From assembly GCA_023259175.1 (NCBI GenBank), contig JAHFQV010000026.1, forward strand, positions 1 through 42,538: 42,538 bases of DNA, written 5' to 3'. Numbering within the stretch: the stretch's first letter is position 1; each line of letters opens with the position of its first letter. The notes beneath the pieces were generated by a model. It searched no databases, was not told the origin of the DNA, and saw only the letters and a list, made by a program, of their open reading frames with translations. The translations under genes were made by a program, and so were the position numbers. Below are positions 34,987-36,308 of this stretch, one piece after another. Source of the DNA: Oxalobacteraceae bacterium. GTDB lineage: Bacteria; Pseudomonadota; Gammaproteobacteria; Burkholderiales; Burkholderiaceae_D.

Positions 34987-35415
34987 TTAGCTGTCCTCAA
35001 TTTTGGTGCTGCGTATCAGCTCAACTAGGTTGTTTTCCTGGCCACGCACCAATTTGAGTAATTCGCCTCGTGCGACTTCGTGCGTGACACCGGCGGCGAT
35101 CAATTTGTTTAAAAGAGCACCAAAGCGGGCTCGTCGTTTTAAACCGACTTCCGTTAAATCGCGCCGGTCGCAAAAATTTTCTAACATGGTCGAGCCACAG
35201 GCGCAGTTGCGGAAAAGTTCGATAATTTGCGAGCCGTCGTCATCTTCGGAAAGCTTAAACCCGCTGCGCCCGGTTTTGATGGCGACCGTGCCTTCAATAA
35301 AAGACTTTGCATCGACAAACTCGCGCCCACAGTTGCGACAAGTGCGCGGAAAATTTGACTCCACTAGGCTACGCAGATTTGCGAACATGTCATCTTGTTC
35401 TAGCTGCGTACTCAT
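34987..35415 (-). CDS. Hypothetical zinc-ribbon-like protein
   Basis: The product is 142 residues from ATG 35415; the frame continues upstream to 35574 through the repeat-like region and is not used. Cysteines 26 and 29 (RTCRNCGREF) and 71 and 73 (NCACGS), with Cys82, could bind zinc. The C-terminal half is helical and charged (VARGELLKLVRGQENNLVELIR). No family is recognised. It is convergent with the DoxX pair. Confidence 0.6.
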   Translation of the reverse strand: MSTQLEQDDMFANLRSLVESNFPRTCRNCGREFVDAKSFIEGTVAIKTGRSGFKLSEDDDGSQIIELFRNCACGSTMLENFCDRRDLTEVGLKRRARFGALLNKLIAAGVTHEVARGELLKLVRGQENNLVELIRSTKIEDS

Positions 35416-35542
35416 GGTGATTGACTCCGCGAAATAATTGCTCCTAGCACTAGGATAGCAAAAAAATGCGGGATTCGACAATTTTGTAAGCATTTCCCCT
35501 AGGGCGATTGCATGAAGCCGTATCAAAACATAATACCACTCA

Positions 35543-35569
35543 ACACAGAGGCACAGAGACACGGAGAAA
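35543..35569. repeat. CACAGAG-type low-complexity repeat
   Basis: The stretch ACACAGAGGCACAGAGACAC and a following GGAGAAA consists of irregular CRCAGAG units. I know very similar ACAGAGGCACAGAGACAC strings as dispersed repeats in several bacterial genomes. It lies 26 bp from the mobile element at 35600. Confidence 0.4.
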
Positions 35570-35599
35570 CCCATGAGAACTTCATAAATTCACAATGAT

Positions 35600-35852
35600 C
35601 CTAGAAACGGCAGTTGACCGCTCAAGATCGTCTTTAACTTTTTGATTTGTCGACATATTGTTCGCTTTATGGTGATCACCATTTCGGTGAGTGCGCTACA
35701 GGCTTGATTGCACACTTTTCCGCCCATCTGGACTTTTGTGTTACTTCAGTGAAGTAACCTCCTCCTATCAACGTGGAGGTTGCGTCGTCGTCGTGCCTTG
35801 CCAGATGGGCGGAAAAATGCACACTCAAACCCGTCCAACTGCCGTTTCTAGG
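35600..35852. mobile_element. 253-bp MITE-like element, IS1380-type ends
   Basis: Terminal inverted repeats CCTAGAAACGGCAGTTG (35600-35616) and its exact complement (35836-35852) are flanked by the direct repeat ATGAT (35595-35599 and 35853-35857), a 5-bp target duplication. Inside are a second inverted repeat of 16 bp (35716-35731 with 35801-35816, imperfectly extended to about 33 bp), the palindromes ATGGTGATCACCAT (35669-35682) and TTACTTCAGTGAAGTAA (35741-35757), and a 7-bp stem (35756-35762 with 35775-35781). There is no transposase frame. The CCTAGA start and 5-bp duplication resemble ISEcp1 of the IS1380 family. Confidence 0.7.
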
Positions 35853-35857
35853 ATGAT

Positions 35858-36056
35858 TAACGCGAGAAACACGCCAAAATTCACTCCTCTTGCTTTTCCT
35901 CAGGTCGCAGCATGCTGCTTACCTGTGTTGAGAGGTTTTTTGGCTCTTTATTGGTTCTTTTATTCATGCAATTGCCCTAGCATTTCTTCTTGTGCGAGAA
36001 ATGGCTTAGTAGACGTGCTACATTAGATGCTCTAGAGCCGTCGTTTGGAGTTTGCT
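35858..36056. other. Non-coding spacer after the mobile element
   Basis: About 200 bp lie between the element and the next small gene. No coding frame, RNA gene or clear terminator is visible. A -10-like TACATT precedes the gene by about 25 bp. With 35416-35599, these stretches make the whole 640-bp gap non-coding. Confidence 0.5.
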
Positions 36057-36308
36057 ATGCTGGAAGAAGACCCTTTAATTCAATTGCTTATTTCCTTGCT
36101 ACCCAGCCCCTTATTTATGGCGCTGTCGGTGGCGTTTGGCATCATAGGTATGGTTTGTTTTTATTCGGGACGCAAAAAGGCTAAACCTCGACTCAAGTGG
36201 GGGGGCGTGGCCTTGATGTTTTATCCGTATTTGATCGGTAACGATACCCGACTCTTGGTGGTCGTTGGGCTGGCGCTCTGCGCGGGTTTATTTTTCTGGC
36301 GGGAGTAA
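36057..36308 (+). CDS. Small hypothetical membrane protein
   Basis: The product is 83 residues from ATG 36057; a TTG at 36045 is in frame. Two or three hydrophobic segments (LFMALSVAFGIIGMVCFY, GGVALMFYPYLI, RLLVVVGLALCAGLFFW) surround a basic loop SGRKKAKPRLK. It resembles small conserved inner-membrane proteins of unknown role. GGAG lies 7 nt upstream. Confidence 0.65.
   Translation: MLEEDPLIQLLISLLPSPLFMALSVAFGIIGMVCFYSGRKKAKPRLKWGGVALMFYPYLIGNDTRLLVVVGLALCAGLFFWRE

Follow-up and report, generated by a model that had tools for sequence, protein, structure and literature searches.

In the Bacillus cereus group, bcr1 is a short mobile repeat whose RNA fold is conserved and which is flanked by a 5-bp target duplication. 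Ends beginning with CC, together with a duplication of 4 or 5 bp, are hallmarks of the IS1380 family of transposons. Several other bacterial repeats are close in kind to the element described here. In the part of the survey drawn on here (Delihas 2007, PMC2229807), ERIC, NEMIS/Correia, YPAL and RUP are small bacterial MITEs of about 100-200 bp with mostly inverted ends, described for particular genera or families, whose RNA stem-loops are proposed to affect mRNA via RNase III and RNase E; the table of the same source marks a 5'TA3' terminus in four of seven MITE families. BRE, in the portion of its description cited here (PMC3110155), is a repeated, usually intergenic sequence of Bordetella, Polaromonas, Acidovorax and Rhodoferax, and lies in the same region as the small RNAs bprJ1/bprJ2 of B. 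pertussis. Mattes et al. (2008) reported MITEs from Polaromonas sp. JS666, as cited in a 2024 review of prokaryotic MITEs (PMC10969869), in the available part of which no mention of IS1380 was found.

Here, we describe a 253-bp element at positions 35600-35852 of a 42,538-nucleotide stretch of DNA from an Oxalobacteraceae bacterium, the whole of which we refer to as the window. An earlier note, made from the letters alone, had proposed a MITE-like insertion with exact ends and a strong fold, perhaps mobilised by an IS1380-family transposase elsewhere in the genome. Judged from sequence comparisons, the element is very probably a MITE that is mobilised in trans by a group of IS1380-related transposases via a bipartite end, and that has an interior selected as RNA.

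The element and its copies

The element is bounded by perfectly complementary 17-bp inverted repeats, the left, CCTAGAAACGGCAGTTG, at 35600-35616 (plus strand) and the right, its exact complement, at 35836-35852 (minus strand), and is flanked by ATGAT, of the form NTNAN, at 35595-35599 and 35853-35857, so that the length, ends and target duplication given in the earlier note are all confirmed. With up to three mismatches, the end 17-mer occurs at two places in the 42.5-kb window, both of them ends of the element, against 0.08 expected. Inside lie a subterminal palindrome, CACC-ATTTC-GGTG (35677-35689), which starts at element nt 78; an inner stem, P2/P3, with a left arm at 35698-35731 and a right arm at 35801-35834, which form an inverted repeat that is 82% complementary and shows covariation; and a perfect 19-bp palindrome (35740-35758), located in the stretch that brings the window subtype to 253 bp, compared with about 235 bp otherwise. 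The claimed strong fold was borne out on both strands (plus, -100.7 kcal/mol, z -7.2; minus, -111.9 kcal/mol, z -9.7), neither being equalled by any of 200 shuffles, and G-U pairs favour the RNA fold of the minus strand of the whole element (35600-35852). As had also been noted, no transposase is encoded inside: among ORFs of at least 100 aa, the only one to enter the element (35691-36026) exits via its right end. Rfam 15 covariance models gave no match at E<=1 for window positions 35300-36200, and in 10 loci from relatives only two tRNAs passed the gathering threshold.

The MITE appears to have inserted into an imperfect palindrome at 35499-35980 (arms 35499-35516/35963-35980 and 35529-35548/35923-35942); its flanks, when joined without it, form one hairpin (z -4.9, against mononucleotide shuffles only). 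No other copy of this flanking palindrome was found among the loci examined. Its left arm contains CACAGAGGCACAGAGACACGGAGAA, which we take to be a widespread repeat motif.

In the source assembly (4.03 Mb in 233 contigs, 95.8% complete), blastn with the window element gives 47 matches, and the end pattern, at up to three mismatches, matches 74 times compared with 6 times for a reversed control pattern. Four full 253-bp copies, 98-100% identical and flanked by ATGAT, ATGAT, TTGAA and ATCAT, lie on four contigs; these are the multiple copies with different 5-bp flanks that the earlier note had proposed to look for, and the single copy that would have spoken against it is not what the 47 matches describe. 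Both ends, with up to four mismatches each, were found in 23 copies, 13 of them with exact 5-bp duplications, in a pairing count that leaves out loci L006, L007, L008 and L015. Several copies reach contig ends, as repeats that break assemblies would.

Beyond this genome, the end pattern occurs with at most one mismatch in 23 of 98 relatives and exactly in 23 of 399 genomes of the order, counts that include the source genome and, among the single matches, chance hits; the reversed control pattern also matches some genomes, so that those with a single hit are partly due to chance. Named genome contigs carry the pattern at no fewer than 113 loci (at least 83, 14, 8, 3 and 2 from Pseudomonadota, Chlamydiota, Nitrospirota, Verrucomicrobiota and Nitrospinota, respectively, and at least 3 from others). 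Two-ended copies at named loci number at least 64, 18, 5, 4 and 1 in the same five phyla, and exact duplications at least 37, 15, 3 and 2 in the first four, with none in Nitrospinota among the copies listed; most of these records are metagenome bins, any single one of which may be a wrong bin. Some of the metagenome bins with end-pattern matches (L089, L140, L146, L151, L199) carry the titles Klebsiella pneumoniae and Bordetella parapertussis, which may be wrong labels. Viral contigs gave six end-pattern matches, none of them two-ended, and blastn searches of plasmids gave no match with the window copy and two records with a copy from Polaromonas.

For the analysis of flanks, a two-ended copy was allowed up to five mismatches per end, up to seven summed and a length of 90-480 bp. 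This gave 147 copies, leaving out the duplicate loci L001, L006, L007, L008 and L015, as well as L286/L304 and loci fetched for transposases; two were repeats (L119=L297 and L182=L248), so that 145 distinct copies have these ends in common with the window element. Exact 5-bp duplications flank 86 of the 145, against a mean of 10.5 and a maximum of 19 with shuffled flanks (69 of 115 in an earlier set, against a mean of 8.3 and a maximum of 18). All 86 are of the form NTNAN, which is also found on the left of 131 copies and on the right of 133. The exact duplication is absent from 59 copies, 38 of which have NTNAN on both sides and 12 of which differ at the centre only; recombination between copies would explain such NTNAN-flanked but inexact pairs. 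The many copies, the different 5-bp duplications and the lack of a transposase together support the identity of the element as a non-autonomous, MITE-type element.

The folded interior

Copies of the 233-253-bp class (alignments A1 and A3) contain, within the terminal stem, another stem of some 34 bp; those of the 163-bp class (A2) are palindromic over almost their whole length. The alignments have 34 (A1), 23 (A2) and 30 (A3) rows after near-identical copies were left out by hand, and A3 is also without four distinct rows of A1 (L017, L020, L098, L136). In A3 (30 sequences, 68 pairs), 94.0% of cells are paired compared with 77.4% in shuffles, and covariation is 0.476 compared with 0.166, a value reached by none of 500 shuffles and falling to 0.06-0.10 when the partner is slid; in A2, the corresponding values are 90.2% and 73.4%, 0.476 and 0.176, and 0.09-0.16 for the slides, with the qualification that these controls leave shared ancestry in and that the structure, being drawn from the same sequences, has an advantage over the slides.

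Such double-sided changes do not in themselves require RNA. Quasi-palindrome correction and the need for a cruciform during transposition are established processes that would give them, and the arms of a MITE are palindromic DNA. Both processes follow Watson-Crick pairing and predict equal numbers of G-T and A-C cells, whereas the inner pairs, predicted without allowing G-U and counted outside the terminal repeats, contain G-U and A-C cells at 116:28 in A3 and 90:19 in A2 (shared ancestry uncorrected). Counted by columns, the ratios are 26:7 in A3 (p 0.0013; 7 with both) and 15:4 in A2 (p 0.019; 3 with both), and G-U exceeds A-C in 27 of 30 sequences of A3 and 22 of 23 of A2. When the prediction is made for the other strand, A-C cells exceed G-U cells (126:99 and 107:37); for the class of the window element, the strand favoured by G-U is the minus strand. 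The excess of G-U on one strand points to selection at the RNA level, and we regard covariation arising from DNA-level processes, with no selection on RNA, as unlikely. The strand bias in folding energy agrees with the G-U bias, although composition accounts for part of it, as shuffled interiors favour the same strand too (-11.8 against -28.8 and -7.0 against -16.7 kcal/mol).

A strand-biased mutation pattern imposed by the neighbours is argued against by the orientation of the copies to their flanking genes, which is random: 46:43 upstream and 45:44 downstream, for the 89 of 145 oriented copies with usable neighbours on both sides by crude ORF calls, by which 13 further copies lie within ORFs. 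A role in cis within mRNA thus gains no support from this random orientation. Nucleotide profiles of MITEs and transposons match weakly, with E<0.01 only at the ends (approximately the first 107 and last 30 bases), and the inner stem is therefore no visible remnant of a transposase gene. Because the stem shows compensatory changes and tolerates G-U mainly on one strand, selection for an RNA hairpin, with transcription of the interior, is the most likely reading.

The interior also has optional domains. One is the 19-bp palindrome of the window subtype; another, some 89 bp long and containing two hairpins, is inserted at about one site in L021, L029, L033, L245 and L023, and stem differences between its copies keep pairing; other inserts, of 28 bp (L025/L027) and 80 bp (L119), are found elsewhere.

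Transposons with related ends

Ends like those of the MITE are found in autonomous transposons of other genomes, which form a divergent, IS1380-related group. PF13701 was searched in 73 genome handles that match the end pattern once or more, some having a single match and at least one genome probably being counted twice (G035, G817); it matched in 36 of them, and tblastn with the Polaromonas protein against fetched loci found the divergent group in at least 9. At E<=1e-30, PF13701 matched in 17 of the 73 handles compared with 27 of 398 phylum genomes, two samples that are unmatched for phylogeny. The transposases of the group are long (about 480-550 aa) and divergent, and come with ends near-identical to those of the MITE. 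Their hosts are Nitrospirae (G829, G830), Chlamydiae (G847, G828), Thiohalocapsa (G839), a groundwater gammaproteobacterium (G849), a betaproteobacterium (G831) and G510, which has many copies. In the 98 relatives, the 30 loci examined, taken from the stronger matches, contain one member, an incomplete gene in G086, which does not itself have the end pattern.

Six group proteins were aligned, and identity to the first of them is 42-55% in the remaining five. The best NCBIfam model for all six is NF033539 (IS1380), matched over nearly the full length with 119.7-159.9 bits, which is below its cut-off of 180, and the next family reaches at most 41.7 bits; all six are above the PF13701 cut-off of 34.7. 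In a plasmid tblastn search, most annotated matches among the best 25 of 2985 records are labelled IS1380 family, including ISEcp1 and ISSsu5.

Ends were analysed for 11 transposons, five of them from G510. Of the 17 positions of the MITE end, they share 10-16, and all 22 begin with CCTA, followed by G in two only (Polaromonas right, Thiohalocapsa left) and by A or T in the others; left and right ends of a single transposon are often unlike. Seven are flanked by exact 5-bp duplications (TTTAT, GTGAA, TTAAT, ATTAT, ATAAA, GTCAA, TTAAA), all NTNAN, and the remaining four by unequal flanks, each of them NTNAN. The group thus has the CC-initial ends and 5-bp duplications expected of the IS1380 family. 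A transposon on a Polaromonas plasmid (L382:1418-3047, duplication TTAAA) has one end that is like the MITE end at 16 of 17 positions; its right end is CCTAGAAACGGCAGTTA. A 234-bp MITE (L382:3405-3638, flanks TTCAT/TTAAT) lies about 360 bp from this transposon. A hypothetical protein, LP417_34705, is annotated inside this MITE copy (L382:3463-3642) and is probably spurious.

Transposons and MITEs also have the subterminal palindrome in common. With nt 1 set at the transposon end that precedes the transposase gene, CACC-N5-GGTG is found at nt 78 in three transposons (L382, L364, L356), at nt 89 in three (L369, L368, L354) and at nt 101 in one (L378), steps of 11 and 12 bp, or about one helical turn; in L358, the strict palindrome is absent and a variant, CCCCATGGGTGA, is found at nt 90. 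It extends over the start codon (ATGGGTGAA) in some transposons and falls within N-terminal codons in others, so that it cannot be put down to a shared protein frame. In the MITEs, CACC-N4-6-GGTG is present in 81 of the 145 distinct copies (64 being without), compared with about 1 in shuffled interiors, and starts at nt 74-81 from an end in 66 of the 81 (at 78 in 35) and at nt 89 in 3. Ends, target and palindrome together make this branch of IS1380 the most likely mobiliser, and mobilisation of the MITE by an IS1380-type transposase can be considered well supported.

The suggestion of an IS1380-type transposase made in the earlier note therefore holds at the level of the family, through a divergent group with near-identical ends, NTNAN duplications and the subterminal palindrome. 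Its placing elsewhere in the same genome does not, as the source assembly has no match to PF13701 at E<=0.001 and none to NF033539. The copies in this assembly are probably leftovers of earlier waves, since the source transposon was not found there. Nor is the relative ISEcp1-type proper, because the group falls below the curated IS1380 cut-off and is without the canonical ends.

A canonical, ISEcp1-like IS1380 element as the driver of the MITE is accordingly very improbable, even though such elements resemble the MITE in ends beginning CC[CT] and in NTAN or NTNAN duplications: no canonical locus examined has an end pair like CCTAGAAACGGC, CACC-N4-6-GGTG is found within 150 bp of either end in 0 of 8 canonical elements, and the divergent group fits far better. 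Canonical loci from the 98 relatives and 398 phylum genomes were rejected as candidates on their ends, which are wrong, the duplications being similar; two of them are off-pattern in the duplication as well (L275, TAATA; L282, ATTTA).

We give equally little weight to an IS4-type transposase as the mobiliser, with the 1776-bp unit of G594 that contains it as the autonomous parent. This 430-aa protein is indeed encoded between exact 17-bp MITE ends (L286:1009 and 2784, flanks CTGAA/TTGAA), and its relatives in G691 and G1110 are also found beside MITE-like ends. Elsewhere, however, the transposase has ends of its own, (T/C)AACGGTGTCCGG, with 9-bp duplications (L324, CCGCCAGAG; L325, CTTTCGTAT) and no MITE ends, and in G594 its transposon lies inside a MITE palindrome, between CCCATTTGG and CCTGTTTGG (7/9 alike); the best family for the protein is IS4, below cut-off. 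The candidate is thus largely refuted, its own ends and the 9-bp duplications in further copies indicating a nested insertion.

The IS4-type transposon is found inside or beside MITE-type elements at L286:1009-2784 (G594), L305 and L323, in G594 in the loop of the CACC-N5-GGTG palindrome, and may prefer palindrome loops. Searches with its protein found no relative on viral contigs and no solved structure. A MITE family that is sister to the one described here is suggested by a related end variant, CCTAAAA(A/T)CCTCAGTTGAAC, at L305:2894 and L323:1614, whose flanks are NTNAN (TTTAA, ATTAT). The source assembly has two matches to PF01609 (DDE_Tnp_1), the stronger of which (L204, G000:C215), a 568-aa transposase that we take to be of the IS1634 kind, was rejected for its unrelated ends, CTGAAGTTCC.

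Finally, a chance palindrome or a non-mobile host regulatory repeat, to which the 59 copies without an exact duplication might be attributed, can practically be dismissed in view of the 86 exact duplications, against 10.5 with shuffled flanks, and of the four near-identical copies at four sites.

Proposed mechanism and comparison with known systems

In the mechanism that we favour, a divergent IS1380-group transposase of about 480-550 aa would cut and paste the MITE in trans, reading a bipartite end that consists of a CCTAnAnnCGGCAGTTG-like terminal repeat and the subterminal CACC-N5-GGTG palindrome, which starts either at nt 78 or roughly a helical turn deeper in the element, and each insertion would cut NTNAN with a 5-nt stagger. 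The minus-strand interior would be transcribed and kept as an RNA hairpin, which may protect the element or its neighbours from read-through, recruit RNase III or act in trans. A further-reaching reading, possible though somewhat doubtful, is that the element, from a selfish lineage of DNA transposons, is a mobile carrier of structured RNA, one strand of its interior being kept folded across phyla, with the two-hairpin domain of about 89 bp as an optional part, that it is moved by the IS1380 branch with the bipartite end, read in helical phase with the palindrome at nt 78, 89 or 101, and that the RNA serves the element itself; the RNA would then control access of the transposase or silence read-through, and not serve neighbouring genes.

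A single end sequence connects MITEs from the records of four phyla with an IS1380 branch that has been little described, and this link makes cross-mobilisation directly testable. The palindrome common to nt 78, 89 and 101 predicts how the end complex is built, and strand-specific tolerance of G-U offers a way to tell RNA-level from DNA-level selection in palindromic elements.

Among known systems, the IS1380 family (ISEcp1, ISSsu5; NF033539, PF13701) has transposase homology with the partner group over most of its length, and its CC-starting ends and many of its duplications (NTNAN, or NTAN in 4-bp members) are like those of the MITE and its partner. The window element differs from it in encoding no transposase, and the partner group differs from canonical members in its score below the NCBI cut-off, its CCTAnAnnCGGCAGTTG-like ends and its palindrome, which is missing from the eight canonical elements tested. 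The bcr1 repeat belongs to another host group. A literature search with CCTAGAAACGGC gave no match, and we recognised no published description of the MITE family. The MITEs of JS666, so far as the citing review describes them, come from Polaromonas, a genus that also carries the present family, and BRE, compared by the cited portion of its description only, is about 90 bp long and often in tandem; both may overlap with the present family, part of which may thus already be in print. In the portions of the literature compared here, earlier bacterial MITEs, including those of the ERIC type, were described from one genus or family, whereas records from four phyla contain the present family, which has NTNAN duplications of 5 bp and a partner of the IS1380 type.
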